Shown one piece after another: positions 1-14,669 of a stretch of DNA of 64,000 bases; within the stretch, counting starts at the first letter, position 1; each line of letters opens with the position of its first letter. Under the pieces are notes generated by a model. The model did no database searches. It saw nothing but the letters and a program-made list of their open reading frames with translations, and was not told the DNA's origin. This DNA is from a bacterium. Lineage in GTDB: Bacteria; Patescibacteriota; Patescibacteriia; 2-12-FULL-60-25. The stretch covers positions 502,625 to 566,624 of the forward strand of contig JAJYXM010000016.1 of the NCBI GenBank assembly GCA_021796435.1, given 5' to 3'. The position numbers were made by a program, and so were the translations under genes.

Positions 1-2
1 CG

Positions 3-590
3 CATGAGGTGGCGAAGGCTAAGAAGTTGGGTATCTACGATGAGTTGATAGTGGGTTACTCGAACGCCATACCTCTGCAGGATGCATCGGTCGATATGGT
101 CTTCTCCAACAGTGTCGTAGAACATATCGCTGATAAGGCCGGGACGATCAAAGAGGCCGCACGTATCCTGAAACCAGGTGGAACGTACTTATTCAGTGCG
201 CCGTCACAGAATTTCACTCCGTGGCTTAAGTTCGGAAAGTGGGGAAGTAAAGAGACCTGGTTGAACAGGATGTGGACGGGTGCGATCAATGGCAAGTTCA
301 TCCATCATTGGTTACAGTCACCTGAGACTTGGGAGAAGGATCTGAAAGAACATGGTCTGGAACTGGTCAAAGCGCGATACACTCTGACGTCGGAGAATCT
401 TGGTGAATGGGAACGCTGGTTGATCCCGTCGTATCTGCAACACCTGCCAGCTAAACGCTTCGGATGGGTGCCGTTTTCCGGTATCTTCAAGCGTCGTTTG
501 CAGAAAAGATTGCCGAAGCTACATGAGCCAGAAGATCTTGCGGCAGGCGGTAACGTAATAATATTGGCCAAGAAAACTATTACGGAATGA
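3..590 (+). CDS. SAM-dependent methyltransferase, 5'-truncated by window edge
   Basis: This is the C-terminal part of a class I SAM-dependent methyltransferase. The frame is open to the left edge, so the glycine-rich SAM motif I lies outside the window. Visible are a VDMVFSNSVVEHI segment (motif II/post-II, typical of Methyltransf_11) and LKPGGTYLFSAPS (motif III region). The first in-frame start inside the window, a GTG at 9, is unlikely to be the true start. The stop overlaps the next gene by 4 bp (ATGA), so the two are translationally coupled. Being next to glycan genes suggests a sugar or lipid-carrier substrate, which is inference. Confidence 0.8.
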   Translation, partial: HEVAKAKKLGIYDELIVGYSNAIPLQDASVDMVFSNSVVEHIADKAGTIKEAARILKPGGTYLFSAPSQNFTPWLKFGKWGSKETWLNRMWTGAINGKFIHHWLQSPETWEKDLKEHGLELVKARYTLTSENLGEWERWLIPSYLQHLPAKRFGWVPFSGIFKRRLQKRLPKLHEPEDLAAGGNVIILAKKTITE

Positions 591-1279
591 AAGTATCCCT
601 CATCATCCCAACCTTGAACGAAAGCGGCTCGATCGAGGCGCTGTTTCGAGGTTTGGATGAGGCGGTCAATACTTTGCCGGAAGGTTGGGGTTTTGAAGTG
701 ATAGTCGTCGACGATGGATCGATTGACGGGACGCCGGATAAAGTGCGGAGTTTGCCGTCAGGTTTCGCGAAGAAAGTCATACAACGAAAAGAGCGCGGCT
801 TAGCGACGGCGGTGTTGCGTGGTTTCGCTGAAGCGGAAGGGGACGTCTTGGGTGTGATAGATGCAGACTTGTCGCATCCGACGCAAAAGATTCCGGAGTT
901 GCTTGCGCAGCTTGAGGGAAAAGATGTGGTAGTGGCGAGCAGGAACATCCCAGGCGGTGAGGTCGAGGAATGGCCATGGTATCGGCGTTTCATGTCGTGG
1001 TTCGCTACGTTGTTGACGCGTCCGCTTGGGGTCAAGTCGAGCGATCCGATGTCTGGCTTTTTCTTTGTACGTCGTGAAGTTCTAGAGGGAAGTGAACTTT
1101 CGCCCTTGGGGTATAAGATATTGCTTGAGATCCTGGTGAAGGCGAAGATCAGGTCGGTTTCAGAGGTGCCTTATGTTTTCCGTAATCGCGAGGTAGGGAA
1201 GAGCAAGATGGATTCGCGGGTCACGGCGAATTATCTTAGGCATCTTTGGCGGCTGTATAAATGGAGGTTTTTCGGTTGA
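587..1279 (+). CDS. GT2 glycosyltransferase, dolichol/polyprenyl-phosphate mannosyltransferase-like
   Basis: A 230-residue GT-A fold transferase. The N-terminus SLIIPTLNESGSI and VVDDGSIDGT are the nucleotide-sugar binding strands. GVIDADLSHP holds the metal-binding DAD motif. The length without C-terminal membrane helices matches catalytic-only polyprenyl-phosphate hexose synthases (DPM1-like), which transfer a sugar from GDP or UDP to a polyprenyl phosphate at the inner membrane face. It overlaps the upstream methyltransferase by 4 bp. The sugar and carrier are not decided by sequence. Confidence 0.85.
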   Translation: MKVSLIIPTLNESGSIEALFRGLDEAVNTLPEGWGFEVIVVDDGSIDGTPDKVRSLPSGFAKKVIQRKERGLATAVLRGFAEAEGDVLGVIDADLSHPTQKIPELLAQLEGKDVVVASRNIPGGEVEEWPWYRRFMSWFATLLTRPLGVKSSDPMSGFFFVRREVLEGSELSPLGYKILLEILVKAKIRSVSEVPYVFRNREVGKSKMDSRVTANYLRHLWRLYKWRFFG

Positions 1280-1314
1280 CGCTTGGCGATTAAGCCGATA
1301 GATTGTAAATCAGT

Positions 1315-2115
1315 ATGGAAACAGCGAAAGGCATAAGCATCAGGGATCTCCGCGCCAGATGTCAGGCGACTGCACCGGCGCCTGAGAGGGAGACTTTTAC
1401 GGGAAAAAAGGCTCGGATTTTTTCGATCTATTTCACCAAGCTATTTCTGTACACATCAATAACCCCAAACTGGATTACTGTCATTTCCGTCCTAGTCTTC
1501 TTTGTAGGAGTGGGTTTGTTCCTTTTCCAGTCGGTGTGGCTTTCCATCCTTGGCGCATGTCTCGTCTTCTTTGCTACCGTGTTAGATGGATGTGATGGCG
1601 AGGTCGCGCGTTTCAGGCATTCAGGCGGTCCGGTCGGTGGGATTTTTGCGGAGCCGGTCAGTCATGATGTGCAGTACGGCCTCATGTTCTTGCCGCTGGG
1701 TTTGGCAGCTTCCCTTTCGATTGGTCAGATCTGGCCTTTGGTCTTAGCTTTCTTGGCTGCGGTCGGGAAACTGTTGACCCGCCTTGCGGAGATGCGTTAT
1801 TGGCAGTTGCTGCATCCACAAGGAATCACTGAGGAAGAGAGGACAGCGTCAAGACAGTCGATGACGAAGCGCTCTGCTTTAAGGAAATCCGTCTCTTGGT
1901 TCAAGCGGAATATTTTTTCATCCAACGGCGTCATCTTGCCTTTATTGTTGGCGGCGATATTCGACAAATTGTACTGGTACGTCGCTTTCTATGGTGCAGG
2001 TTATTTTGCCTTGTGGGTTCTGGTGTTCGGTAAACAGCTGATGAAGTTGAATAACAAAAAAACGACTGAAAGCGCTGCATCCGACCTAAAGACGGAAATC
2101 AATCACGCTTTTTAG
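1315..2115 (+). CDS. CDP-alcohol phosphatidyltransferase family protein with variant active site
   Basis: A 266-residue integral membrane protein of the CDP-alcohol phosphotransferase family, which moves a phospho-alcohol from a CDP-linked donor to an acceptor alcohol. D91, D94, G95, A98 and R99 of the signature are present (DGCDGEVAR). The usual third Asp is E113 and the usual fourth, catalytic, Asp is H117, followed by D118. Hydrophobic segments surround the motif. A long soluble N-terminus (about 45 residues) precedes the first helix. It sits beside two nucleotidyltransferase domains, a cyclase and a kinase, so a CDP-cyclitol or other CDP-polyol donor is plausible. Its 3' end overlaps the convergent dehydrogenase gene by 30 bp. 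Confidence 0.8.
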   Translation: METAKGISIRDLRARCQATAPAPERETFTGKKARIFSIYFTKLFLYTSITPNWITVISVLVFFVGVGLFLFQSVWLSILGACLVFFATVLDGCDGEVARFRHSGGPVGGIFAEPVSHDVQYGLMFLPLGLAASLSIGQIWPLVLAFLAAVGKLLTRLAEMRYWQLLHPQGITEEERTASRQSMTKRSALRKSVSWFKRNIFSSNGVILPLLLAAIFDKLYWYVAFYGAGYFALWVLVFGKQLMKLNNKKTTESAASDLKTEINHAF

Positions 2116-3114
2116 GACTTTACCTGCTTGGTTCGCATCTAGCGCATCGTGAATGCGCGAGAAGGGGTAGATGTGTTCTGGTGATATATAAAGCTCAGCG
2201 GACAAATGTCCTTGCTTGATTAGATCGACGACTTCATCGTGAGTCGTCCCTTCTTCGTATTGGATACCGTTGTAGAAAGTGAAACCCTGTTCTATCGCAA
2301 AAGGTGACAAGGAATATTTTGTCGCTTCATTCAGTCCGTAGACCGCAATCTTACCTTCAGCTTTCAGCGACGGAAGTGCGGAATTCATGCTAGCAGCATG
2401 TCCTACGGCATCAATAATGATGTCGTATGGCCCAGCTGAGTTCACTTGGTCATCGGCATCTGGTGAATCGTATGCGATGAAGTTAGCTGCGCCAGCTTGG
2501 GTAAAAAGGCCTGAACGCCTTGCGCTGCCACGGACAGTGATGTGAGCACCTGCGTTGCGAGCGTGTTCGACAAAGGTTAGTGCGTTGGCGCCACTGCCCA
2601 GAATAAGTATCTTTTGTCCTGGTTGCAGTTGCATGCGACGGAGAAAGGCGAGCGTCTCGCGCCAGGTTATGATCATGGTCGATGCTATTGGGTCAAAATC
2701 AGCAGGTAACTTTTGGTTGATCATGCGTGGACGCCAAACGGCCTCTGCAACGCCGTCGTCGCGCATGGCTTGCCAGTCTGTGACGATTCCGCGTTCAGCG
2801 AAAGAGCCCCAATTGTCTTTGCAGGATATACCGCTTGATTCAGGCATCTTGTTGACGACGCGCGTCACTAGATCGCCTACGGCTAAGTTCTGGACCTTGC
2901 TGCCGACCTGGATGACCTTGCCGATACCTTCGTGGCCCAAAATCGTCGGATACCGGATATTGAAGAATTCATTACCTTGGATGGCGTGGTGGTCGGTACC
3001 GTTACAGACGGAAGCACAAAGTACGCTGCATAAGGCATCGTATTCACCTAATATAGGCTCCGGAATTTCTTGGATTTCCAGTATTCCGGGAGATTGAATC
3101 AGTGCGGCTTTCAT
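2086..3114 (-). CDS. Zinc-type alcohol/polyol dehydrogenase (MDR family)
   Basis: A 342-residue medium-chain dehydrogenase/reductase. The catalytic zinc region shows C37 (VCNGTDH) and H61-E62 (LGHEGIGKV). The four-cysteine structural zinc lobe of classical alcohol dehydrogenases is absent. A Rossmann motif ILILGSGANAL starts near residue 169. It is transcribed against its neighbours, with its start facing the cyclase fusion gene and its end overlapping the CDP-alcohol transferase. MDR enzymes act on sugar alcohols, threonine and cyclitols. Here an oxidised or reduced inosose-type intermediate is a reasonable guess from context only. Confidence 0.85.
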   Translation of the reverse strand: MKAALIQSPGILEIQEIPEPILGEYDALCSVLCASVCNGTDHHAIQGNEFFNIRYPTILGHEGIGKVIQVGSKVQNLAVGDLVTRVVNKMPESSGISCKDNWGSFAERGIVTDWQAMRDDGVAEAVWRPRMINQKLPADFDPIASTMIITWRETLAFLRRMQLQPGQKILILGSGANALTFVEHARNAGAHITVRGSARRSGLFTQAGAANFIAYDSPDADDQVNSAGPYDIIIDAVGHAASMNSALPSLKAEGKIAVYGLNEATKYSLSPFAIEQGFTFYNGIQYEEGTTHDEVVDLIKQGHLSAELYISPEHIYPFSRIHDALDANQAGKVLKSVIDFRL

Positions 3115-3171
3115 GTTAAGGTCTGTTGGATTCTTAAGAAGTGATATTAGTCAAATAAGCTAGGAAAGTCA

Positions 3172-5061
3172 ATGGATATGGCAGAAAAAACAGTCACGGA
3201 AACTGCGGTGATCCTGGCAGGAGGACCAGGTAAGAGATTGGAAGGCTTTGAGACCATCAAACCACTGGTCAGGCTTGGAGGCAAGTCTTTGATCCTTTGG
3301 ACCATCGAATGTCTGCAGGAAGCGGGTATCAATAAGATATTCGTCGTTGTGCCGAGTCGGGATACTCTGGTCCGGCGAGCCCTATTGGGTGATCCGGCCA
3401 TCAAAGCGGAGATCGAATACGTGGAACAGGATCCTCAATCCAACAGCATGTTGGGTTCGATTGGGGCGATGTTTGGTAAGACCGAGGGCCCTCTTTACAT
3501 TACGCCGTGCGATTTGATTTTCGAAAAAAATCCATATGCGTTATTCGAGCAGGGGGATGTTGATGAAAGTCTGATCCATGTATTGGTCGGTACAGATGAT
3601 GAGTCCGGAGAAGCCTCTGGCGCAACCGCCAGGGTCGAGCTGGAGAACGGAAAGATCGTCAAAACCGGAACTAGTCTAGAGAAGCCATCGGCGTACGAGA
3701 TAGGAATACTCCATTTGGGCAAGGATGTGACACAGGATTTTTTCCAAAAAGCTGCTGCGTGTCCTGCGGCGAATTCATTCGAGTCGCTACTTAAGGACTA
3801 TGTCGACAGCGAGAAGGTGAAACCTGTCGACTATGACGGTAGCAGATGGTTCGATATCAATACCCCTGCTGTACTCATCAGAGCAGAGCTGTTTCTGCGT
3901 TCATTGTCTTCGAATCAAGCAACGGAAGCGCGTGAACTGCGTGCTATGAGTTCGCCGATCACCCTGAATTACCAGAAGCCAGTATCGTTCGATGTATTCG
4001 TGGAACGTGGTCTGCTCGACAAGATAAAGGAGTATGAGATCATCCCGCATGAGTCTTATTACTCGAAGCATTGTCTGGTCGTGGATAAGAACATCGACGA
4101 GCTGTATGGCGAAAAAGTGCTGAAGCAATTCCAGGAGCTCGGTTATAACATGACTAAGCTCGTAGTCGATCCGGGTGAGTGGTCGAAGAGCATTGAGGTG
4201 TATCTACGTCTCGCTAACGAGATATTAGGTGAGGGCATAGACAAGAAGTCGGTCATATTGTCTTTGGGCGGCGGAGTGATCAAAGATATCGCCGGCTTCT
4301 TGGCGGCGACTCTTTATCGTGGTGTAGGATCCATCCATATCCCGACCACGGTCCTGGCTCAATGTGATGCGGCTATCGGCTTCAAACAGGGCGTGAACGG
4401 TGAGGGCGGAAAGAATTTGATAGGAAGCTATTATGCTCCGTTGAAGATCCTGGTCGATCCTGACGTGTTGGAGACTTTGGATGACAGATATGTGAGCGAC
4501 GGGTTAAGTGAATGCCTCAAGCAGGCCTTTGCGCAGGATAGGACGTATTTCGATTTCTTCGCAGCACATGAAGGCAAACCAAAAGACATCCCGTTCCTCG
4601 AAGAAGCAATAAAACGCAGCATAAAACTCAAGATCGATTCGTTAGAGAAGGACTTCTACGAGGACAACGTGGCGTTGGTCTATCAATATGGTCACGAGAT
4701 CGGCCATGCCGTCGAATACCTTTCCGGCTATAAGTTGGGCCACGGTGAAGCCGTGGCGGTCGGCATGCGGACTTCGGCAGAACTGGCTTGTCTCATGGGC
4801 GTAAGCGACGAGGAGACATTGCGGCAACAGATCGAACTCATGAAACGTTACATTTTGCCGACGACGATCCCGCGTGACATCAAAGCAGATGACATCATCA
4901 ACTTGTTGCGCTGTAACAAGAAATTCCATGGAGGCGAGGCGAAGTTCGTCTTGGTAAGGAAGATAGGCGAGATTTGGCATGATCGGGGACATTATTTCGT
5001 TTCATGTGGCGATGATGTGATCAAAGAGGCAATCAACCGTAGCTATGAAAAGAGCGTCTGA
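3172..5061 (+). CDS. Nucleotidyltransferase fused to dehydroquinate-synthase-like sugar phosphate cyclase
   Basis: A 629-residue two-domain protein. Residues 1-245 are an NTP-transferase domain: LAGGPGKRL (15-23), KPLV (30-33), metal Asp D114 in TPCD, and WFDINTP (226-232), a motif seen in inositol-phosphate cytidylyltransferases. Residues 260-629 are a DHQ-synthase-fold cyclase: SLGGGVIKDI (364-373), PTTVLAQCDA (391-400), GGKNLIGSYY (412-421), with likely metal ligands E447, H512 and H524. DHQ synthases carry GGKTGVN where this protein has FKQGVN (404-409), which resembles 2-deoxy-scyllo-inosose synthases more closely. AGGAAAG before the start supports 3172; an ATG at 3178 is an alternative. 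The product may be an inosose that is later activated. The fusion is inferred to link cyclisation and activation. Confidence 0.82.
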   Translation: MDMAEKTVTETAVILAGGPGKRLEGFETIKPLVRLGGKSLILWTIECLQEAGINKIFVVVPSRDTLVRRALLGDPAIKAEIEYVEQDPQSNSMLGSIGAMFGKTEGPLYITPCDLIFEKNPYALFEQGDVDESLIHVLVGTDDESGEASGATARVELENGKIVKTGTSLEKPSAYEIGILHLGKDVTQDFFQKAAACPAANSFESLLKDYVDSEKVKPVDYDGSRWFDINTPAVLIRAELFLRSLSSNQATEARELRAMSSPITLNYQKPVSFDVFVERGLLDKIKEYEIIPHESYYSKHCLVVDKNIDELYGEKVLKQFQELGYNMTKLVVDPGEWSKSIEVYLRLANEILGEGIDKKSVILSLGGGVIKDIAGFLAATLYRGVGSIHIPTTVLAQCDAAIGFKQGVNGEGGKNLIGSYYAPLKILVDPDVLETLDDRYVSDGLSECLKQAFAQDRTYFDFFAAHEGKPKDIPFLEEAIKRSIKLKIDSLEKDFYEDNVALVYQYGHEIGHAVEYLSGYKLGHGEAVAVGMRTSAELACLMGVSDEETLRQQIELMKRYILPTTIPRDIKADDIINLLRCNKKFHGGEAKFVLVRKIGEIWHDRGHYFVSCGDDVIKEAINRSYEKSV

Positions 5062-5989
5062 AGATCTGAATCATTTCCTGACTCGCGAGTATGGGATCCA
5101 TCCTGTCGAGATCGTGGGGTTGGATAACGGCATGATCAACATCAACCACCGAGTCATAGCAGAGGAGGGTGATTTCGTATTCAAACAGTACACCTTGAGG
5201 ACCCCGCCTCAGGTGGCTTATGAGGTAGCCGTACTGGACCGCTTGGCAAAATCAGGTTTCAGATCCCCTAGGGTATATAGGACATCGACAGGGAAAGGAC
5301 AGGCGATATTGGATGAGAAACCTGTCGTGCTGTTGGGTTTTATCCCGGGCAGACCGTTGAAAAAGTGGGATGTAAAGATTTTGCACCAAGTAGGCAGGAT
5401 GTTGGGCGAGATGCATATTTCTACCAAGGACATGAAACTCCCAGCCGTCGATCGAGAACGCTGGAGCTTCCCTGAGGTCGGATGGATAATGAAGAACGGC
5501 GTGAGGCGGATCCTGGCGCTACGTAACGGCATAAATACGGATGACGTCGATTTCATGTCAGCGGAATATGCAACCTTGGGTGATCTGGAGAGGTTGCCGA
5601 TTGGCGTGACGCACCAGGACGTAAAACCCGACAACATGATCCTAAGCAATGATGGCGCCATAAGCTTCATAGATTTCGATAATGTCTATAAGGATGTTTT
5701 GTTGGTTGATTTGGCCACGACGATAATCTGGACTTGTTTCCCCGATGGTAAATTGGTGAAGGGCTCTTTAACGGCGTTGACTTCAGGCTATGCTTCGGTG
5801 AAGCCTTTGACGAAAATAGAGAAGCAGCTTTTTTATGATCTGATACGTTTTAGGTTGCTACGTGAAGCTTTGGATTGGCCTATGCGTTTTTCGACTGAGA
5901 AGGCATTGAGCAACCATAGGCACTTTTTGGCTGCATACCGAAGTCTCATCAAGAACAAGAAATACATCGAAAAGATATGGAAGGCCTGA
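5045..5989 (+). CDS. APH/choline-kinase family small-molecule kinase
   Basis: A 314-residue protein kinase-like fold enzyme of the aminoglycoside/choline/homoserine kinase (CotS) group. The catalytic loop is HQDVKPDN (H190, D192, N197) and the Mg-binding motif is IDFD (D210, D212). An N-terminal lobe lysine lies in FVFKQYT. The gene overlaps the cyclase by 17 bp and the following nucleotidyltransferase by 13 bp, which points to one transcript. In this setting it would phosphorylate the alcohol that the next enzyme activates, as choline kinase does before CDP-choline formation. The substrate is not known. Confidence 0.8.
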   Translation: MKRASEDLNHFLTREYGIHPVEIVGLDNGMININHRVIAEEGDFVFKQYTLRTPPQVAYEVAVLDRLAKSGFRSPRVYRTSTGKGQAILDEKPVVLLGFIPGRPLKKWDVKILHQVGRMLGEMHISTKDMKLPAVDRERWSFPEVGWIMKNGVRRILALRNGINTDDVDFMSAEYATLGDLERLPIGVTHQDVKPDNMILSNDGAISFIDFDNVYKDVLLVDLATTIIWTCFPDGKLVKGSLTALTSGYASVKPLTKIEKQLFYDLIRFRLLREALDWPMRFSTEKALSNHRHFLAAYRSLIKNKKYIEKIWKA

Positions 5990-6720
5990 CGGGAATCATC
6001 ATGGCAGCCGGCAGAGGCGTGAGGTTGGGTGAGCTGACGCACGATAAGCCGAAACCTTTAGTGCAGGTCGCAGGTGTAGAGCTGATCCGTTTTGGCTTGG
6101 CCTTTTTGCAAGACTTGGGTGTCGAAAAAAAGATTGTGGTAACGGGTTATGGCGCTGAAGCATTGTCGGATGTCGTCCGTCGTTATGACCCGACTTGCGT
6201 GTTGATACATAATGATGCCTTTCATAAAGGCAGTGCGACGACGCTTGAGCGCGCTTTAGCTGAAGTCAACGGGCCGTTCGTAGTCATGACGGCCGATCAT
6301 ATATTCAGGAAAGATATCGCGGAGAGGGCGAGACTACAGTTCGGCGAGTCACTGACAATATTCACGGATCGGGATCGCACATTGGGTGACGATGACATGA
6401 AGGTGTCGCTAGATCCTGAAGATGGTCGAGTATTGAAATTATCCAAGACTTTGGAAGAATACGATTGCGGTTACGTGGGTTTCTCGTATTGCCCAGAGTC
6501 TATAACGCATCTGGTCAAGGAAACGATCAGTGAAGCTAAAGATGTCTTCGGTCCATCAGCAAACCTGGAACATGTGTGGCAGACATTGGCGGATATTGGT
6601 CATCGCATCGAAACAGCTGATATCAGCGGATCAAAATGGTTAGAGGTTGATTTTCCGGAAGAGCTGATAAAGGCGACTGAAGAGGTCGAGAATAATAAGG
6701 AAAAATATCATCATTTATGA
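5977..6720 (+). CDS. Sugar-/polyol-phosphate nucleotidyltransferase
   Basis: A 247-residue NTP-transferase. The signature AAGRGVRLG occupies 10-18 and KPKPLV follows at 24-29. D107 (MTADHIF) is the probable metal ligand and WLEVDFPEE near the C-terminus is the second acidic site. The short length, with no left-handed beta-helix, fits the choline-phosphate or inositol-phosphate cytidylyltransferase group rather than GlmU or GlgC. It overlaps the kinase upstream and the methyltransferase downstream (ATGA), so it is part of the same operon. CTP as nucleotide is inferred from the nearby CDP-alcohol transferase. Confidence 0.8.
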   Translation: MEGLTGIIMAAGRGVRLGELTHDKPKPLVQVAGVELIRFGLAFLQDLGVEKKIVVTGYGAEALSDVVRRYDPTCVLIHNDAFHKGSATTLERALAEVNGPFVVMTADHIFRKDIAERARLQFGESLTIFTDRDRTLGDDDMKVSLDPEDGRVLKLSKTLEEYDCGYVGFSYCPESITHLVKETISEAKDVFGPSANLEHVWQTLADIGHRIETADISGSKWLEVDFPEELIKATEEVENNKEKYHHL

Positions 6721-7658
6721 GCCGTTGTGAACTTTGTGGTTCAGAGGATAGGCGAGTGGTTTATCATCTAGCTGCGCTCAAAAAAGGTGAGCCGAGGAGC
6801 GTGACTAACGCACTATGCTTGCGTTGTGGCTTGATTTTTAATGATCCTGCGCCGTCAGATGAGGAACTTGTCAGGTATTATCAAGGAGAGTTCTTAAAGG
6901 ACAAGACCGCCACTGGTTACGAAGAGATTGCTCGAGCTGCAGAGAGGAAGATGAAGAACGAGGGGCGAAAAGAACTTCGCGTGATAGACTTTTTAGCGCC
7001 TCTTTTGAAAAAAGATGCAAGCGTTTTGGATATCGGCTGCAGCATGGGAGCTCTGCTTTCAGATTTTAAGGTACGTTACAGCGGCAAGGTTACTGGCGTC
7101 GAGCCGGATGAGATATATGTGCGCATCGCACGTGAATTTTTCAAACTTCCGGACATAAGACATGAGTTTTTGGACGATTTTTGTTCACGTGATCAGGGTA
7201 CTTACGATTTGGTCATACTTCGTCACGTATTAGAACATCTTAAAGCCCCGCATCTGAGGATCGAACAACTGAAGAAGCTTATGGCGAGCGAGGGTGTCTT
7301 GTATCTAGCTTTTCCGAACGGTGCCCGGATGCGAGCATCCCGCGAATTGGCGCATTGTCTTGAGTTCGGGCATTTGTTCACCTATACTCCTTGGTCAATC
7401 CATCATTTACTGAACAGCCATGGCATGAAGATAGTGAAATGGGATTACGATGAAGCGATGCAATTACAGGTAGCTGCCGTGAGGGCCGAGGTGCCTTTTG
7501 AAGCGGTTTCATTCAATGAATTTTTGGAAGGTTCAGATCCGGAGAGATTGTTTCGCTATCTTAAGGGGCATGACCGTAGGCATTTCGTTTATAGAGCGCT
7601 GCGTAAGATGAAAAGAATTTCTTCTTTTATCTCCGGAGGAAGGAAGGATGAAAAATAG
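6717..7658 (+). CDS. Class I SAM methyltransferase with N-terminal zinc ribbon (first of three)
   Basis: A 313-residue protein. The N-terminus carries a four-cysteine ribbon (CELCGS, CLRCGLIF), followed by SAM motif I VLDIGCSMGALL, acidic EPDE after strand 2, and LRHVLEHL. It shares this plan with the next two genes, so the three are tandem paralogues. Similar zinc-ribbon methyltransferases occur in surface polysaccharide clusters and modify nucleotide sugars or glycan ends. The family's larger C-methyltransferases have an extra C-terminal domain that is absent here. Start ATG overlaps the preceding stop. Confidence 0.82.
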   Translation: MSRCELCGSEDRRVVYHLAALKKGEPRSVTNALCLRCGLIFNDPAPSDEELVRYYQGEFLKDKTATGYEEIARAAERKMKNEGRKELRVIDFLAPLLKKDASVLDIGCSMGALLSDFKVRYSGKVTGVEPDEIYVRIAREFFKLPDIRHEFLDDFCSRDQGTYDLVILRHVLEHLKAPHLRIEQLKKLMASEGVLYLAFPNGARMRASRELAHCLEFGHLFTYTPWSIHHLLNSHGMKIVKWDYDEAMQLQVAAVRAEVPFEAVSFNEFLEGSDPERLFRYLKGHDRRHFVYRALRKMKRISSFISGGRKDEK

Positions 7659-7660
7659 AT

Positions 7661-8629
7661 ATGCATAAAGTCAGGTGCCCGTTATGCAATTCCGATGACG
7701 CCCAGGTCATCGCCACCAAGGCCGATTATGTCGTGGATCTGACGAACGTCGTCTGTCGACGTTGTGCTTTGGTATACACCGACCCGATGCCGACCAAGGA
7801 GGATCTGGATAATTATTACCATAAACAGTTCATCCAAGAGCGGCATCACATCTCTTCAGTCGAGGAAGCGCGGGAGCGCGCCAAGAGCAAGAACAGCCTC
7901 GCTAAATATCCGGTCGATACGATAAAGGGATACCTCACCAAAGATTCGCAAGTCTTGGAGATCGGCTGCGGTTATGGTTTTTTCCTCAAACGCATCAAGG
8001 ACGAATGCGGTTCGCAGGTCTTTGGCGTCGAGCCTTCGGAGGTTTCAGGTAAATTCGCAGCCGAGGAATACGGCATAGACGTCTTCCATGGGCTGTTGGA
8101 TGATTATCTTGCCCAGCAAGACGGACGGAAATTCGACATGATAATAATGCATCATGTCCTTGAGCATATCAGCGAACCGATCGTGGCATTGAAGCGCCTT
8201 GCGGAGAAGCTCACGCCCGGAGGTAAGTTCTATATCGTCGTTCCGAACGTCACAGCCCTGCAGGAACCGCCTGAAGCGTTTTTTCAGTATCCGCACGTGA
8301 TCAGCTATTCGCCATGGACATTGAATCTGACGTTGCAGGCCGCCGGTCTGAAGGCCATCGCATTGAACTCTCGTCTGAAGCCGCCGCGTAACGGCATGGA
8401 GGTCGTCGTCACACGTCTTGAAGAATCGGGTGACATGCTGCCGACCAATATGGCGGTAATAGGTTCGGATGTCCATGATGTCGTGTCTGAGATCAGGCAC
8501 GCGAGTTTAGTCTATGGTGCGTTACGTGGTCTGAAACATGCGGCAGAAAAGGTCGTGCCACAGAAGTTGATCTCTCCGCTCAGCCTTAAGCTAAGGAGGT
8601 TGATACGGAAAGTAGGAGATACTAAGTGA
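7661..8629 (+). CDS. Class I SAM methyltransferase with N-terminal zinc ribbon (second of three)
   Basis: A 322-residue paralogue of its neighbours. It has CPLCNS and CRRCALVY ribbon cysteines, VLEIGCGYGFFL as SAM motif I, GVEPSE, MHHVLEHI, and LTPGGKFYIVVPN as motif III. It lies 2 bp after the previous gene. A third basic C-terminal helix (LKLRRLIRKVG) may touch the membrane or a carrier lipid, which is a guess. The methyl acceptor is unknown; divergence among the three copies suggests different positions on one glycan. Confidence 0.82.
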   Translation: MHKVRCPLCNSDDAQVIATKADYVVDLTNVVCRRCALVYTDPMPTKEDLDNYYHKQFIQERHHISSVEEARERAKSKNSLAKYPVDTIKGYLTKDSQVLEIGCGYGFFLKRIKDECGSQVFGVEPSEVSGKFAAEEYGIDVFHGLLDDYLAQQDGRKFDMIIMHHVLEHISEPIVALKRLAEKLTPGGKFYIVVPNVTALQEPPEAFFQYPHVISYSPWTLNLTLQAAGLKAIALNSRLKPPRNGMEVVVTRLEESGDMLPTNMAVIGSDVHDVVSEIRHASLVYGALRGLKHAAEKVVPQKLISPLSLKLRRLIRKVGDTK

Positions 8630-8630
8630 T

Positions 8631-9587
8631 ATGTACGCATCAGACGCCGAAAAATTGGAACAGATATGCTGCCCGGTGTGTAAGAGCGACGACTGTGAAG
8701 TCGTCGATGAGAGGACGGGCGGAGGAAAACATCTGAGAAGCGTGATCTGCAGACGTTGTAGCCACGTATACCTGAATCCGCGCGCAAGCCAAGCCGCTTA
8801 TGACGATTTTTATCGCAGCGGTTTCAGTGAAGGCTTCAACCAAATAGATGATAAGGAAAGTCTGGTGGGTCTGGCAGCCAGCAACGATGCAAAGACTGCG
8901 AGGCTCATCAAATTCATCGCACCGCACTTGCGGCCAGGCATGAAGGTACTCGAGATAGGCGCGGGTTACGGAAACATCCTGGCTGTATTGAGGGATAAGC
9001 ATGGGGCTAGCGAGGTCGTCGGCATCGAGCCGGATCCCATCGGACAGAAAGTAGCCCATGAGGTTTTCGGTCTGGACCTTCTTTCAGGAGTCTTGGCCGA
9101 CCATATAGGCGATTTTTCCGATAAGAAATTCGATCTGATCATCATGCATCATGTGCTTGAGCACTTCCTAGATCCGGATGAGATCGGCGAGGCACTGCAG
9201 AAACTGTGTGCCGAGGAAGGGATGGTCTACGTAGGAGTGCCTAACGTTTGTGCGTTGACCGTGCCGCGTGAGTTTTATTTCCGTTTTCCGCATGTACAAT
9301 ATTTCTCTCCATTCAGCCTGTTCCTGTTTTTGTGGAGATCCGGGTTCAAGGTCGTGGACCGTAAAGGATTCGGTCAGCCTTTGACCCTTTTGGCGTGTCC
9401 TATCGCTTCCGCGCAACCTATGTTAAGTTGGACTGAAGCTCGTGCAGTTTCTATCCCATATCGCAAGGTGATAAGTCGGGTAAGGTGGGGTAATATGCGA
9501 CAGCGGGCCAGGCTTTTCTTCAGGGACAAGGTGAAGCCCGTCGTGCCGAAAGGCATCAAGGAGATGTTGAAGAAGGCACTGCATTGA
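8631..9587 (+). CDS. Class I SAM methyltransferase with N-terminal zinc ribbon (third of three)
   Basis: A 318-residue paralogue. Ribbon cysteines are in CCPVCKS and CRRCSHVY, SAM motif I is VLEIGAGYGNIL, followed by GIEPDP and MHHVLEHF. Start and upstream stop are one base apart (TGATATG). Compared with the second copy the motif I Cys is Ala, a normal variant. The C-terminus is again strongly basic. It immediately precedes a GT-B/TagF-like transferase, which fits decoration of a growing glycan. Confidence 0.82.
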   Translation: MYASDAEKLEQICCPVCKSDDCEVVDERTGGGKHLRSVICRRCSHVYLNPRASQAAYDDFYRSGFSEGFNQIDDKESLVGLAASNDAKTARLIKFIAPHLRPGMKVLEIGAGYGNILAVLRDKHGASEVVGIEPDPIGQKVAHEVFGLDLLSGVLADHIGDFSDKKFDLIIMHHVLEHFLDPDEIGEALQKLCAEEGMVYVGVPNVCALTVPREFYFRFPHVQYFSPFSLFLFLWRSGFKVVDRKGFGQPLTLLACPIASAQPMLSWTEARAVSIPYRKVISRVRWGNMRQRARLFFRDKVKPVVPKGIKEMLKKALH

Positions 9588-9588
9588 T

Positions 9589-10977
9589 ATGTCTGACCAA
9601 AAAATCACTATCGCGTTCGCTGTCAGTCGGGGCTTGGTGTGCCGGAATATTTTGCGTACGGGTGTGCTGGAGGAGCTGCTCAAGGATCAACGTGTCAACG
9701 TCGTGCTTTTTTTCCCGCAGCGTGAGGGAGGGGTGCCGGACTATCTGCGGCAGGAATTCGATCATCCGCGCATCAGAATCGAAGAAGTCGCTGAGATATC
9801 CGAGTCACGTTGGGCCAAGCGACTGTGGAAGCCGGTAGCCGATAATCTTGTCTATACGGAGTCGACTGATCTTCTGGCGCGAGAGGGCAGTGCTAAGGTC
9901 AAACCCGTGCCGGCTTGGTGGTATCCAATCCATAAGCGTCTTTTTGGCTTCTTGTCCAAGTTCGATGCCTTAAAGCGAGCGGCACGTTATCTGGATGTCA
10001 GACTTTTTCCTATCCGGGATTATGATGAGTTGTTCAAGCGTATTAAGCCGGATGTCGTATATGCCGGATCGATAATCTCCAACTACGACATCTGCATCAT
10101 CAAGGCGGCTAAGCGCCATGGTGCAAAGGTCGTCGCCATGCAGAAGGGCTGGGACAACTTGCAGCGCCAGCTGATCAGGATCATGCCGGATGCTCTTCTG
10201 GTCCAGAATAAAGAGATGGCATTGGCCGCGAAAAGCGTGCAGAGATTCACTGACCAGACGGTCAAGCTGACGGGCTTTCCGCAATTCGATATCTATGTAA
10301 ATCAGGTAGGCCTGTCTTCGAGGGATGATTTCATGCGAGGTTTCGGCTTGGATCCTGAAAGCAGACTCATCTTCTTCGGCTCTGAGGGGACATGGACGCC
10401 GCAGGATGACCTGGTCATCGACCAACTTTTGGAGATGCGAGAGCGCGGTGATTTTCCGTTCAAGGTTTCATTCGTTTTACGTCCGCACTTCAGCGACGTG
10501 CAGAAAGAAAGATATAAGCGTTTCAAGGGCAGGCCGGGTGTGTTCGTGGATGACGAATATCGCTGGAGTACTTTCTTTTACGATAATTGGGATCCGGCGA
10601 AAGAGGATATGATAAAGCTGGCCAGTGAACTTAAATATGCTTCAGCGGTCGTCTGTTATGCCTCGACGTTGTCGCTCGATGCCGCCTGTCTGGACAAGCC
10701 TATAATCAACGTGGCATTCGGTTCCTTCATCCGTCCGGATGGGACAGATTCTACATCAAACCTATATAAGATGGAGCATTATCAACCGGTGATGGCGAGC
10801 GATGCGGTAGAGATCGTCAAGAACGCAGAAGAGCTGAAACGTGCGATAATCCATTCAGTGGATAAACCTGATTATCGGACTGAGGGAAGAGAGAGGCTCA
10901 GGGAGACGATGTGCGGGCCTTTGGACGGTAAATCCTATATCCGGATCGCTCAAGCGTGTTCAGAATTAGTAAAATGA
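9589..10977 (+). CDS. GT-B / CDP-glycerol glycerophosphotransferase-like protein
   Basis: A 462-residue protein with a GT-B look: an N-terminal Rossmann half with DVVYAGSIISNYDICIIKAA, and a C-terminal half with RLIFFGSEGTW and ASAVVCYASTLSLDAACLDK. The last motif resembles the TagF/CDP-glycerol glycerophosphotransferase family, where Ser-Ser-Asp segments bind the CDP donor. No membrane helices are evident. With a putative CDP-polyol pathway upstream, a transferase of phospho-polyol units is possible. An ordinary nucleotide-sugar GT-B enzyme is equally possible. Its start follows the preceding stop by one base. Confidence 0.6.
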   Translation: MSDQKITIAFAVSRGLVCRNILRTGVLEELLKDQRVNVVLFFPQREGGVPDYLRQEFDHPRIRIEEVAEISESRWAKRLWKPVADNLVYTESTDLLAREGSAKVKPVPAWWYPIHKRLFGFLSKFDALKRAARYLDVRLFPIRDYDELFKRIKPDVVYAGSIISNYDICIIKAAKRHGAKVVAMQKGWDNLQRQLIRIMPDALLVQNKEMALAAKSVQRFTDQTVKLTGFPQFDIYVNQVGLSSRDDFMRGFGLDPESRLIFFGSEGTWTPQDDLVIDQLLEMRERGDFPFKVSFVLRPHFSDVQKERYKRFKGRPGVFVDDEYRWSTFFYDNWDPAKEDMIKLASELKYASAVVCYASTLSLDAACLDKPIINVAFGSFIRPDGTDSTSNLYKMEHYQPVMASDAVEIVKNAEELKRAIIHSVDKPDYRTEGRERLRETMCGPLDGKSYIRIAQACSELVK

Positions 10978-10984
10978 CAAAACT

Positions 10985-11845
10985 ATGTCTCGAATAGCGA
11001 TAATGGGAACAGGGATGGTCGGAGGTGCTCTTGACCGTTATTTCAAGTCCCAGAACCTACAGGCTGGTCTTTTTGACCCGCCAAAAGGTCTGGATGACGT
11101 CGCCGTGTTGGGCGAGGCTGACGTGATATTCGTCGCTGTGCCGACCCCATATTACCTGCCTGACCGGCAGGCGGGTCTCGACGGTTCAGGTTTTGATGAT
11201 TCGTTCATGCGCGCCGCGATAGATGCCATCCCTCAGGAGGGAAAGACTATCGTGCTCAAATCCACCATAACACCGGGCACTACAGAAAGATTCCAAGCAC
11301 TATATCCTCAGCATCGGATCTTGTTCAATCCGGAATTCTTGACCGAGACGACTGCGGATCATGACATGCAGCATCCTAAGCGGCAGATCGTCGGCTATAC
11401 GCAGGAGAGCAGACGCGATGCGGAATTGGTGATGGGACTTTTACCGCGCGCGCCGTTCGAGAAGATCGTCGCGGCGAAAGAGGCGGAGATGGTCAAATAT
11501 TTCGGGAACGCTTTTTACGCCTTGAAGGTCGCTTATGCCAACCAGATGCATGACCTATGCCAGAAGATGGGAGTCGATTATGACGCGGTCAAGGAGTGCG
11601 CCAAAGCGGAGCCGATGATCGTGGGCGACCAGCACAACACGCATCTCGAGATCTACCACAAAGGTTATCGCGGATATGGCGGTAAGTGCCTGCCGAAAGA
11701 TACGCGCTCAATCATCCAACTGGCGGAACAGATGGGTATAGACCTCACTTTGTTGAAGGAGGCGGAAAAATATAATAACGAGCTCCAGAAATCACAGGGT
11801 ATAGATATCCAGTGGGTTGAGGGATCGCCTAAGAAGGGTAGCTAG
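10985..11845 (+). CDS. UDP-glucose/GDP-mannose dehydrogenase family protein, short form
   Basis: A 286-residue member of the UDP-sugar 6-dehydrogenase family, which oxidises a nucleotide hexose to its uronic acid in two NAD-dependent steps. The N-terminal NAD fold shows IMGTGMVGGAL and VPTPYY. The catalytic cysteine is in GYGGKCLPKDT. The protein stops soon after the central dimer domain, so it lacks the usual C-terminal UDP-binding domain (typical length about 390-450). It may be a naturally short form or use a partner. It begins 7 bp after the preceding gene. Confidence 0.8.
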   Translation: MSRIAIMGTGMVGGALDRYFKSQNLQAGLFDPPKGLDDVAVLGEADVIFVAVPTPYYLPDRQAGLDGSGFDDSFMRAAIDAIPQEGKTIVLKSTITPGTTERFQALYPQHRILFNPEFLTETTADHDMQHPKRQIVGYTQESRRDAELVMGLLPRAPFEKIVAAKEAEMVKYFGNAFYALKVAYANQMHDLCQKMGVDYDAVKECAKAEPMIVGDQHNTHLEIYHKGYRGYGGKCLPKDTRSIIQLAEQMGIDLTLLKEAEKYNNELQKSQGIDIQWVEGSPKKGS

Positions 11846-11868
11846 TATTTGGTAGCTAGTAGTTGGTA
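11830..11868. repeat. Left inverted repeat flanking the four-helix-bundle gene
   Basis: Short tandem units (GGTAGCTAGTATTTGGTA, then AGCTAGTAGTTGGTA) precede the gene. Their complement recurs downstream at about 12241-12277 (ATACCAGCTACAAGCTAC, then TAATACCAGATAC). Match is imperfect. The pair frames the gene and the left unit overlaps the end of the dehydrogenase gene. Confidence 0.65.
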
Positions 11869-12242
11869 TGGGCACTGAAGAAAAGGTAAAAATAAAAAAT
11901 TTCTGCGATTTACTTGCTTGGCAGGAGGCGCATCAGTTGTCTTTGTGCGTATATCGGACAACAAGAGAATTTCCTAGAGATGAGGTTTACGGTCTTGTTT
12001 CACAGATGAGACGTGCATCCGTATCGGTGTCATCAAATATCGCAGAAGGTTTTGGGAGGAGAACGAATCCTGATAAAAGGCATTTTTATGATATGGCGGG
12101 TGGTTCTTTGGCGGAGCTGCAGAGCCAACTTCATTTGGCGCGTGATTTAGTTTATCTTCCCAAAGAAAAAACTGTAGAGTTGCTTGAACGCACAGAGAGG
12201 GTCTATAAATTACTAAATGGCTTGATTGGTTTTATTTCCTAA
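11868..12242 (+). CDS. Four-helix bundle protein (23S rRNA intervening-sequence / S23 family)
   Basis: A 124-residue four-helix bundle protein. Diagnostic segments are AWQEAHQLSLCVYRTT, LVSQMRRASVSVSSNIAEG and the C-terminal helix. Members occur inside 23S rRNA intervening sequences and as Avd in diversity-generating retroelements, where they bind nucleic acid. Most stand-alone copies have no known role. Here it sits between the nucleotide-sugar dehydrogenase and epimerase genes, bordered by imperfect inverted repeats made of AGCTAC/TACCA units. This looks like a mobile insertion in the glycan operon. Confidence 0.88.
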   Translation: MGTEEKVKIKNFCDLLAWQEAHQLSLCVYRTTREFPRDEVYGLVSQMRRASVSVSSNIAEGFGRRTNPDKRHFYDMAGGSLAELQSQLHLARDLVYLPKEKTVELLERTERVYKLLNGLIGFIS

Positions 12243-12277
12243 TACCAGCTACAAGCTACTTAATACCAGATACTTAT
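12241..12277. repeat. Right inverted repeat flanking the four-helix-bundle gene
   Basis: Contains ATACCAGCTACAAGCTAC and TAATACCAGATAC, the approximate reverse complement of the left units at 11830-11868. It fills the whole gap between the small gene and the epimerase start. Confidence 0.65.
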
Positions 12278-13192
12278 ATGCATTATCTCGTCACTGGCGG
12301 GGCGGGGTTCATCGGCTCCAACCTCGTCGATAAACTGATCGAAGCGGGTCATCAGGTACGCGTCCTCGATAACCTTTTCACCGGCAAGCGTTCGAACGTA
12401 AACCCGGCCGCGGAGTTCGTGTTGGCCGATTTCACCAAGCTGGAAGAGATACGGCCTCATTTTGTCGGCATCGATGGGGTGTTCCATGTGGGCGCGATCC
12501 CGCGTATCCCTTTATCGATCGAGAAACCTATCGAGACCATGCAGGCTAATGTGATGGGCACGTTGAATGTACTTGTCGCGGCGCGCGACGCCAAAGTCAA
12601 GCGCGTCGTCTATTCGGCGTCATCATCCGCCTATGGGGATCAGAAGGAAATGCCGCTCCGGCCAGATATGCGTCCGAATCCTTTGAACCCCTATGCCTTG
12701 CACAAATACGTCGGTGAGATGTTGTGCGAAGAGTTCAGCCGTCTGTACGGATTACCGACCGTGTCATTACGTTATTTCAACGTATACGGCCCACGTATGG
12801 CGAACGAAGGGTCCTATGTAACCGTGATAGCGATCTTCATGAGACAGCGGAAGGCGGGAGAGCCATTGACGATCGCCGGAGATGGCGGACAGACGCGCGA
12901 TTTCACGCATGTTTTCGATGTCGTGAGGGCGAATATGTTGGCCATGGAGTCTGACAAGGTGGGCAAAGGTGAAGTGGTCAATATCGGTGCAGGAGAACAA
13001 CACAGCGTAAATGAAATCGCAGCCGCCATCGGCGGAGAAACAAAACACATAGACGCACGATCAGCAGAGGCGCGTGATACATTAGCCGACATCTCTCTGA
13101 CGACAGAGCTTATCGGTTGGCAGCCGCAGATCAAATTCGCGGATGGTTTGAGGGAATTGCTTAAATCAGAAGGGCTCGAACCGGTGAACTGA
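12278..13192 (+). CDS. NAD-dependent nucleotide-sugar epimerase/dehydratase
   Basis: A 304-residue extended SDR enzyme. TGGAGFIGSNL is the NAD-binding glycine motif, YSASSSAYG the catalytic Ser region and YALHK the YxxxK pair. YFNVYGPR is typical of UDP-glucose or UDP-GlcNAc 4-epimerases and related C4 enzymes. It follows the dehydrogenase and four-helix gene in the same direction. The product is probably a C4-epimerised UDP sugar or uronate, but family members overlap so much that the exact substrate cannot be read. Confidence 0.82.
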   Translation: MHYLVTGGAGFIGSNLVDKLIEAGHQVRVLDNLFTGKRSNVNPAAEFVLADFTKLEEIRPHFVGIDGVFHVGAIPRIPLSIEKPIETMQANVMGTLNVLVAARDAKVKRVVYSASSSAYGDQKEMPLRPDMRPNPLNPYALHKYVGEMLCEEFSRLYGLPTVSLRYFNVYGPRMANEGSYVTVIAIFMRQRKAGEPLTIAGDGGQTRDFTHVFDVVRANMLAMESDKVGKGEVVNIGAGEQHSVNEIAAAIGGETKHIDARSAEARDTLADISLTTELIGWQPQIKFADGLRELLKSEGLEPVN

Positions 13193-13207
13193 ATAATGGC
13201 AAAGCAC

Positions 13208-13272
13208 GTCATCCCGGACTTGATCCGGGATCCAGTGGTTCAGGCCTGGATTCCCGCCTGCGCGGGAATGAC
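13208..13272. repeat. Palindromic intergenic repeat (GTCATCCCGG ... GGGAATGAC type)
   Basis: Composite palindromic repeat between convergent genes. Its first arm is GTCATCCCGGACTTGATCC and its last is TTCCCGCCTGCGCGGGAATG. The same unit recurs at 22057, 23274, 23944, 33812, 61209, 61711 and 62351. It could act as a transcript-end hairpin for both neighbours. Confidence 0.85.
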
Positions 13273-13295
13273 AAAAGGTGAAGGAGGAGCGTATA

Positions 13296-14669
13296 TTACG
13301 TTCCTTGTCTGCGCACGATTATCCCGATCGTCTTAAGCAGAATCGCCACATCAAGCAGAGGTGAACGGTTTTTGATGTAGTACAGGTCGAACTGGACTTT
13401 CTTCAGGTTGTCTTCGATGGTCGAGGCGTACGGAAAATTGACTTGCGCCCAACCGGTGAGGCCAGGGCGCGTCAGATGGCGCAGATTGTAGTACGGCATC
13501 TGGCGTGTCAGCTCCGCGACGAATTCAGGGCGTTCAGGGCGTGGTCCGATGAAAGAGAGATCTCCACGCATGACGTTCCAGATCTGCGGGAATTCATCCA
13601 AGCGCGTCTTGCGCAGGAAGGAGCCGACCTTGGTGACGCGGGGGTCGTTGGCGACGGCGAACTGCGGTTTGCCCTCGGCTTCGGCATCTTGACGCATCGT
13701 ACGGAATTTCCACATGCGGAATTCCTTGCCGTGTTTGCCGACGCGCATCTGTGAATACAGGACCGGACCTTGCGAAGTGAGTTTGATCGCTAGCGCCACG
13801 AAGGGATAGATGAGCAAGGTGAATATGCCGAAGGGGATCGCGAGCAGCACGTCAGCGACGCGCTTGAAGGCGTCGTACCATATCTTGTCGTGTTCGCGCA
13901 GGTTCTCGAGGAACCAGGTCTGCGAGACGTATTCCAGAGGCACGCGGCCTGTGACGGTCTCTTCCAGCGATGCCCGGTCGAGCAAAGCGACGGGCGTGAA
14001 AAGCGTACGATAGAGCGAGTCGCGTAACCCGGGTACTTCTTCGGGACGGTGACCTAGGACTACTGTATGGATATTCTGTTCTTTCAAGATAGAGTCGATC
14101 AGTTCGATGCTCACATACCAGGTGATTGTACCGTCGTCGAAGCGCGAGCCAGGGGAGGTCTCGGCCACAGCTACAAGCTCGAAGCCCATGGCGCTGGTCT
14201 TGAGCAGTTTGTGCAGCCTTTCGGCGTCATGCGCATGGCCGACGAAGAGTATGCGGTTGCGGAAAAGCGATGGTGCGATATATCGGTTGAAGGCCAGGCG
14301 CCAGGCGTATCCGAGGAGCAGGATCAGCACGAAGTCCAGGATCAGGTTGGTGCGCGGAGCGATGCCGAACACGGGGAAGAGGTAGAAGAAAGCCAAAGCT
14401 ATGATGAGATTGGCCAGCATGCCTTCGAGGAAAGTGCGGAAAAAAGCGATGTTGTCTTTCACCAATTTGAGGTTATAGAGCCCGACGACATAAAACACGA
14501 CCAACCAGACTAGTCCCAGGGCGGTGAACGGCAGTTCATGCGCATCCCAAGTCTGTGGTTCTATGCTGCGATAGCGGATAAGCAGCGTCAGGATCAGGGC
14601 CAGCTGGAAGATGGCGAAATCACCAGCCACCAGGATGAGCCTTTTTATCTTAAGTCCGAAGTTGAACAT
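13296..14669 (-). CDS. Undecaprenyl-phosphate hexose-1-phosphate transferase (polyprenyl glycosylphosphotransferase)
   Basis: A 457-residue initiating transferase that loads a sugar-1-phosphate onto undecaprenyl phosphate and so starts repeat-unit assembly. The N-terminal half has about four to five membrane helices and a CoA-binding-like domain (WbaP/Wzx-type PHPT layout). The C-terminal catalytic domain shows KRVADVLLA, MWKFRTM, KTRLDEFPQIWNV, SFIGPRPERPEF and RPGLTGWAQV. The length matches the long WbaP/PssY form. It is on the opposite strand to the rest of the island and divergent from the subtilase gene. Confidence 0.92.
   Translation of the reverse strand: MFNFGLKIKRLILVAGDFAIFQLALILTLLIRYRSIEPQTWDAHELPFTALGLVWLVVFYVVGLYNLKLVKDNIAFFRTFLEGMLANLIIALAFFYLFPVFGIAPRTNLILDFVLILLLGYAWRLAFNRYIAPSLFRNRILFVGHAHDAERLHKLLKTSAMGFELVAVAETSPGSRFDDGTITWYVSIELIDSILKEQNIHTVVLGHRPEEVPGLRDSLYRTLFTPVALLDRASLEETVTGRVPLEYVSQTWFLENLREHDKIWYDAFKRVADVLLAIPFGIFTLLIYPFVALAIKLTSQGPVLYSQMRVGKHGKEFRMWKFRTMRQDAEAEGKPQFAVANDPRVTKVGSFLRKTRLDEFPQIWNVMRGDLSFIGPRPERPEFVAELTRQMPYYNLRHLTRPGLTGWAQVNFPYASTIEDNLKKVQFDLYYIKNRSPLLDVAILLKTIGIIVRRQGT

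Follow-up and report, generated by a model that had tools for sequence, protein, structure and literature searches.

What reaction is catalysed by a protein that resembles a dehydroquinate synthase and carries a nucleotidyltransferase at its N-terminus? The question is raised by a 64,000-nucleotide stretch (called the window here) of contig JAJYXM010000016.1 from a bacterium of the Patescibacteriota (assembly GCA_021796435.1). Near its start, the gene for such a fusion lies together with genes for a dehydrogenase, a kinase, a second nucleotidyltransferase (NT2) and a CDP-alcohol phosphotransferase. We consider it likely that the window holds a cyclitol-activating module within a surface-glycan locus, in which a sugar phosphate would be cyclised, reduced and phosphorylated, and a nucleotide then attached.

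Results and Discussion

A first-pass annotation of this DNA had named five open reading frames and their families. The open reading frame list and the Pfam and NCBIfam matches recovered all five, as follows (motifs of the fusion included):

1315–2115, plus strand: CDP-alcohol phosphotransferase variant (CDP-OH_P_transf; PF01066 26.8 bits, PDB 4o6m 46 bits)
2086–3114, minus strand: Zn-dependent dehydrogenase, the proposed cyclic-ketone reductase (ADH_N 45 bits, ADH_zinc_N 41 bits)
3172–5061, plus strand: fusion of NTP_transf_3 and DHQ_synthase, 629 residues (Pfam NTP_transf_3; DHQ_synthase 121.3 bits, DHQS_C 99.9 bits)
4378–4398, plus strand: motif GFKQGVN, residues 403–409 of the fusion
4684–4707, plus strand: motif QYGHEIGH, residues 505–512 of the fusion, which contains Q505, H508 and H512
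5045–5989, plus strand: APH-family small-molecule kinase, the proposed cyclitol kinase (APH 82 bits; motifs)
5977–6720, plus strand: NT2 (NF041135 97.9 bits, under the cut-off; PDB 2xme 59 bits)

The first-pass annotation, which called the five genes contiguous, needs a correction for strand: the dehydrogenase gene lies on the minus strand, points away from the fusion gene and overlaps the phosphotransferase gene at the 3′ end of the latter.

The fusion protein and its active site

The fusion is encoded by a single uninterrupted frame and consists of an N-terminal nucleotidyltransferase (residues ~11–245) and a C-terminal sugar phosphate cyclase (residues ~271–620). The cyclase belongs to the superfamily with the dehydroquinate synthase (DHQS) fold, as both of its Pfam scores are well above the curated cut-offs (24.2 bits for DHQ_synthase and 27.6 bits for DHQS_C). 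Its metal ligands are E447, H508 and H524, equivalent to E194, H271 and H287 of DHQS (numbering of the A. nidulans enzyme), and they are invariant in 16 aligned members of the clade described below. Two of these ligands, E447 and H524, had been picked correctly in the first-pass annotation; the third had been given as H512, which aligns with H275 of DHQS. The replacement of GGKTGVN by FKQGVN was borne out. K405, Q406 and N409 of the GFKQGVN motif are invariant in the same 16 sequences, and so is Q505. The latter residue occupies a fingerprint position, which is N268 in DHQS, aspartate in EEVS (PDB ID: 4p53), alanine in DDGS (PDB ID: 5tpr) and E243 in the 2-deoxy-scyllo-inosose synthase DOIS (BtrC). 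The AlphaFold model of the fusion has a pLDDT of 83, and its cyclase domain superposes on both DHQS (PDB ID: 3okf) and DOIS (PDB ID: 2gru) with target-normalised TM-scores of 0.85–0.89. Because the model fits both equally well, the fold cannot separate DHQS from DOIS.

By its sequence, the fused nucleotidyltransferase domain is nearest to the inositol-1-phosphate cytidylyltransferases. The match to NF041135 (CTP:inositol-1-phosphate cytidylyltransferase, a bifunctional model) reaches 53.5 bits against a cut-off of 580, and the nucleotidyltransferase signature is intact.

Could the protein be a divergent but ordinary DHQS, or a glycerol-1-phosphate dehydrogenase, that has become fused to an unrelated domain? 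The AroB model TIGR01357 gives 292.5 bits, just under its equivalog cut-off of 305, and the top PDB matches are DHQS structures. Against this stand the genome, the active site and the tree. The window genome (1.63 Mb, 100 % complete, 1.4 % contamination) has only one PF01761 gene, and no chorismate synthase was found in it by a search that was positive in 14 of 14 control genomes. Relative to DHQS, the aligned window cyclase has alanine for R264, glutamine for N268, GFKQ for GGK[TVN] and NKK for DKK. R264 is the arginine that binds the carboxylate in DHQS; both it and N268 are retained in the aligned DHQS sequences, which came from many related small genomes and from kiwi, M. tuberculosis and V. 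cholerae. The glycerol-1-phosphate dehydrogenase model scores 29.5 bits against a cut-off of 413. With the tree excluding it as well, we rejected the identity as AroB, and this whole explanation is highly improbable.

The cyclase clade

The pattern D-x5-KQx[VI]N-x4-KNxxGxY[YH] was scanned over 84,980 genomes and gave 110 stretches, of which 80 were listed. Among the matches listed, 16 cyclases are 40–62 % identical to that of the window, and the others are 27–38 % identical. In a tree of 85 cyclases (supports given as ultrafast bootstrap/SH-aLRT), the window type forms one clade of 17 sequences (100/99). Its sister group comprises DOIS and further KQ cyclases (97/92 for the latter), and a 100/99 branch separates the window clade from DHQS, EEVS, DDGS and EboD. 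The earlier suggestion that the cyclase is nearer to inosose synthases than to DHQS thus agrees with the side of the tree on which it falls. It nevertheless departs from DOIS in two features, as Q505 replaces the fingerprint glutamate and the sequence lies in the sister clade. Likeness to BtrC (PDB ID: 2gru/2d2x; the sequence used matches 2d2x at 368 of 368 positions) extends to the fold, the KQ motif, the loss of R264 and the half of the tree, whereas the window type differs in its separate clade, in Q505, in NK[KR] for DNKR and in the fused nucleotidyltransferase; identity in the structural alignment is ~25 %. The clade is probably a new cyclase subclass with a glutamine fingerprint, judged by these sequence features.

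A cyclase using sedoheptulose-7-phosphate would yield a C7 cyclitol, as in the biosynthesis of acarbose and validamycin, which likewise involves kinases and a nucleotidyltransferase. The same enzyme classes do occur in that pathway (PMC9200736), and an annotated sedoheptulose-7-phosphate cyclase of S. clavuligerus adjoins a ROK protein. EEVS and DDGS, however, are cut off by the 100/99 split, and they show KT or KV with a fingerprint of D or A in place of KQ and Q, so that the window cyclase is a member of neither, and we regard a C7 product as unlikely.

Several other cyclases were noted in passing. A large DOIS-like clade (NKQ[AG][VI]N, fingerprint E) occurs in cyanobacteria, Clostridia, Planctomycetota, Acidobacteriota and Myxococcota, outside the known aminoglycoside producers (L046–L048, L052, L063, L081, L086, L098, L111 and others). 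KQ cyclases of Chloroflexota (GI/GQKQA[VI]N, fingerprint E; L057, L068, L071) form a further small clade beside the DOIS side. A small genome of the same phylum (G163 C34; L041/L181) has a KQSVN cyclase on a long branch, with histidine at the fingerprint position. On a plasmid of Streptomyces sp. NBC_01454 (L185), a cyclase-family gene lies between genes for a thiamine-diphosphate enzyme, a BadF-type ATPase and an inositol monophosphatase, possibly a cyclitol cluster.

Conservation in small genomes

The five genes are genuine and evolve under purifying selection. Against the sister species G001, the ratio of non-synonymous to synonymous substitution rates (dN/dS) is 0.05 for the fusion and 0.08–0.13 for the dehydrogenase, the kinase, NT2 and a neighbouring GT2 glycosyltransferase; for the phosphotransferase it could not be computed because dS was saturated. 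With these values of 0.05–0.13, and with the fusion recurring in related genera (38–88 % identity) and in other phyla (31–38 %), the five-gene set cannot be put down to chance.

Few genomes of the class have the fusion (3 of 381). A search for it elsewhere, as the first-pass annotation had proposed, yielded three small genomes besides that of the window, and also Myxococcota. All five genes co-occur in four small genomes (G000, G001, G426 and G625) in differing order, so the neighbours are indeed conserved together. Neither outcome that the first-pass annotation had named as refuting it, a cyclase inside the DHQS or glycerol-1-phosphate dehydrogenases or neighbours that do not keep together, was seen. 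In G001, the entire cluster is syntenic with the window, and the fusion is 88 % identical. The cluster of G426 (PMV_2_maxbin.003) extends over two contigs, the first with the phosphotransferase, a Nudix gene, the dehydrogenase (minus strand) and the fusion, the second with the end of the fusion, the kinase, NT2 and a methyltransferase. In G625, which is from another family of the same class, the dehydrogenase, kinase, phosphotransferase, fusion and NT2 genes follow one another on one strand, mostly with overlaps of a few bases; the fusion is 38 % identical to that of the window, and NT2 forms one protein with a TylF-type methyltransferase. Both G426 and G625 encode an ABC transporter and a Capsule_synth protein nearby. 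The Zn dehydrogenase and the APH kinase accompany the fusion in G001, G426 and G625 and are missing from loci without the cyclase. The kinase has intact HQDVKPDN and DFD motifs. It had been called choline-kinase-like; it is a kinase of the APH family, and its nearest relatives are homoserine kinases (ThrB type, 104 bits; PDB 2ppq, 61 bits) rather than choline kinases.

The same reaction classes in Myxococcota

The fusion-type cyclase was present in 16 of the 189 Myxococcota genomes sampled, one match (G622) spanning the cyclase part only. Thirteen loci have the fusion followed by an SDR and a PfkB kinase in the same order and on the same strand, and in three more the SDR alone was detected downstream (both families were assigned by Pfam on example loci). 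No further gene was common to these neighbourhoods. The top match of the myxococcal fused nucleotidyltransferase is the inositol-1-phosphate cytidylyltransferase model, at 95.6 bits and under the cut-off. The reductase and kinase families here are unrelated to those of the window, and it is because the same reaction classes recur in unrelated proteins that the reaction sequence receives its strongest support. Long branches join the fused nucleotidyltransferase domains in the small genomes to those in Myxococcota, so that a single origin of the fusion is no more than a possibility.

Single-domain members of the clade in Sulfurovum, Ralstonia and Trinickia adjoin an SDR gene, and in Sulfurovum and Ralstonia glycosyltransferase genes as well.

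A DIPPS-like CDP-alcohol phosphotransferase was considered as a myxococcal partner. It occurs in 15 of the 16 genomes with the fusion versus 56 of the 173 others (Fisher p 1.7e-6, uncorrected for kinship). It is unlinked to the fusion and has a canonical motif where read, and we rejected it as more than a lead. Myxococcota CDP-alcohol phosphotransferases of ~400 residues with a canonical motif (L190, L196, L197, L198) adjoin a conserved open reading frame of 136–145 residues and are enriched in genomes with the fusion.

NT2 and the phosphotransferase as a separable module

The five genes are embedded in the following surroundings:

587–1279, plus strand: GT2 glycosyltransferase of the surface-glycan backbone (Glycos_transf_2 97 bits; 66 % identity to the gene in G012)
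6717–7658, plus strand: S-adenosylmethionine-dependent methyltransferase directly after NT2 (Methyltransf_23 76 bits; 43 % identity to the G426 homologue)
9589–14669, strand not given: downstream surface-glycan backbone with glycosyltransferase-like, UDP-sugar dehydrogenase-like, GalE-like and WbaP-like genes

The window-type phosphotransferase also occurs in G012, G049, G632 and G674 with no cyclase, dehydrogenase or kinase nearby, and in three of these (G012, G049, G674) NT2 comes after it. G012 shares the backbone with the window (GT2 66 %, UDP-sugar dehydrogenase-like 73 %, GalE-like 71 % and WbaP-like 55 % identity). When its locus C48:1–14000 (L233) is compared with window positions 1–14669, the fusion, dehydrogenase and kinase are found exchanged for TylF methyltransferases, an NT5C-type HAD phosphatase and an orphan protein of 367 residues. 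The last adjoins NT2 and has no match in Pfam, NCBIfam or the PDB; it is 43 % identical to a 351-residue protein in G674. Since NT2 and the phosphotransferase occur without them, the fusion, dehydrogenase and kinase constitute the cyclitol module and the pair is separable from it, which makes it most likely that the fused nucleotidyltransferase is what activates the cyclitol phosphate.

The first-pass annotation had instead drawn a single chain in which NT2 would activate the kinase product and the phosphotransferase would move the phosphocyclitol onto a glycan or lipid. The five genes do stand together in four genomes and, in G625, on one strand with mostly overlapping ends. NT2 is nearest to CTP:inositol-1-phosphate cytidylyltransferase and matches it better than the fused domain does, although its 97.9 bits are far below the cut-off of 580 and do not make it a member, and the phosphotransferase is weakly akin to CDP-inositol enzymes. 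The pair in G012, G049 and G674 speaks against such a chain, which would also leave the fused domain without a task, and so does the phosphotransferase itself. Its D1xxD2GxxAR half is intact (LDGCDGEVAR), but GxxxD3xxxD4 is not: in an alignment of eight sequences, A, V or T stands at D3 and S at D4, while an invariant EPxSHD lies one residue on from these places in all eight. In a PIP synthase, where D4 serves as the catalytic base, changing it to asparagine leaves hardly any activity (PMC4634129). With neither position an aspartate, transfer by the window phosphotransferase is the least secure step. Its predicted structure (pLDDT 55) was not used. We hold the full chain to be possible, at somewhat less than even chance.

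In another arrangement, a phosphatidyl-cyclitol phosphate lipid would arise from CDP-diacylglycerol with the cyclitol phosphate as acceptor, in the manner of archaetidylinositol phosphate synthesis. Archaetidylinositol phosphate synthase is the top NCBIfam match of the phosphotransferase (40 bits against a cut-off of 180), yet both nucleotidyltransferases would be left without a role, D3 and D4 are altered, and the context is that of a glycan locus; we think this very improbable.

The eight EPxSHD proteins with DxxDGE[IV]AR (window 1315–2115; L165, L221, L232–L235) form a subfamily, at least several members of which are in surface-glycan loci of small genomes. The window itself encodes a second, canonical CDP-alcohol phosphotransferase at 26727–27338 (PF01066, 100 bits). 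Between the UDP-sugar dehydrogenase-like and GalE-like genes, an open reading frame of 124 residues (11868–12242) resembles, by eye, four-helix-bundle proteins of the 23S rRNA intervening-sequence type.

The proposed pathway

From these families and neighbourhoods we infer each reaction, their order, the substrates, the nucleotide and the acceptor. The cyclase domain would turn a sugar phosphate into a cyclic ketone with expulsion of phosphate; kinship with DOIS makes glucose-6-phosphate the most likely substrate. The Zn dehydrogenase would reduce the ketone to a cyclitol of the deoxyinositol type, and the APH-type kinase would phosphorylate it. The cytidylyltransferase-like domain of the fusion would then turn the cyclitol phosphate into an NDP-cyclitol (CDP-cyclitol, probably) destined for a surface glycan or lipid. 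In Myxococcota, the same four steps would be carried out by the fusion, the SDR and the PfkB kinase. NT2 and the variant phosphotransferase would form a second module, which may use this cyclitol or another alcohol. CDP, a hexose-6-phosphate substrate and transfer onto lipid or glycan, all part of the first-pass annotation, are likewise proposals.

Several points weigh against the proposed cyclitol activation. It is drawn entirely from sequence, a structure model and gene context. The score with the AroB model is close to the cut-off, and with glutamine in place of E243 the DOIS reaction itself is not guaranteed. The nucleotide cannot be read from the nucleotidyltransferase family; GDP-valienol is what AcbR and ValB, the known nucleotidyltransferases for cyclitols, produce (PMC9200736). 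No kinase or nucleotidyltransferase is among the annotated neighbours of the single-domain members in Sulfurovum and Ralstonia, and for this reason not every member of the clade need activate its cyclitol.

A bolder version, rather doubtful as a whole, is that a new activity of the glutamine-fingerprint cyclase makes an undescribed cyclitol, that the fused cytidylyltransferase provides small-genome CPR-like bacteria and Myxococcota with CDP-cyclitols for their surface glycans or lipids, and that in the former the EPxSHD phosphotransferase, with rebuilt catalytic residues, transfers it.

Comparison with known systems

In acarbose and validamycin biosynthesis, a cyclase (ValA/AcbC), kinases and a nucleotidyltransferase (AcbR/ValB) lead to an NDP-cyclitol, GDP-valienol (PMC9200736). 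Cyclase, kinase and nucleotidyltransferase genes are likewise together here. Those pathways, however, have an EEVS-type cyclase, separate genes, GDP, a nucleotidyltransferase of the glucose-1-phosphate adenylyltransferase type and a pseudoglycosyltransferase, whereas the window has a nucleotidyltransferase–cyclase fusion, a cytidylyltransferase-like domain and no EEVS kinship. The thermococcal CTP:inositol-1-phosphate cytidylyltransferase/DIPP synthase (PDB ID: 2xme, 4mnd) shares the kinship of nucleotidyltransferase and CDP-alcohol phosphotransferase. There, in contrast, the two domains are fused to each other, the phosphotransferase motif is canonical, and the alcohol comes from inositol-1-phosphate synthase and not from a cyclase with the DHQS fold. 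EboD of the ebo operon belongs to another clade of the superfamily, with a product that is not known (PMC5133447); unlike the window clade, it lies on the EEVS side of the tree, has fingerprint D and is partnered by a UbiA-type prenyltransferase.

In a search covering part of the open literature, neither this fusion nor TIGR04425 turned up as the subject of a paper. NDP-cyclitol pathways as such are already known; what is probably new is this form of the biosynthesis and the subclass of its cyclase. We know of no such activated-cyclitol building block in the phyla concerned.

Conclusion

Genes of this clade are easily misread by similarity as dehydroquinate synthases. The distinct clade, the fingerprint residue, the fused nucleotidyltransferase and the three-gene operon together suggest how a central sugar phosphate may become an activated cyclitol, a route that can be tested directly. 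If the proposal is true, the superfamily to which aminoglycosides, acarbose and natural sunscreens are owed would gain another activity, and something would be learnt of the surface make-up of some small-genome bacteria.

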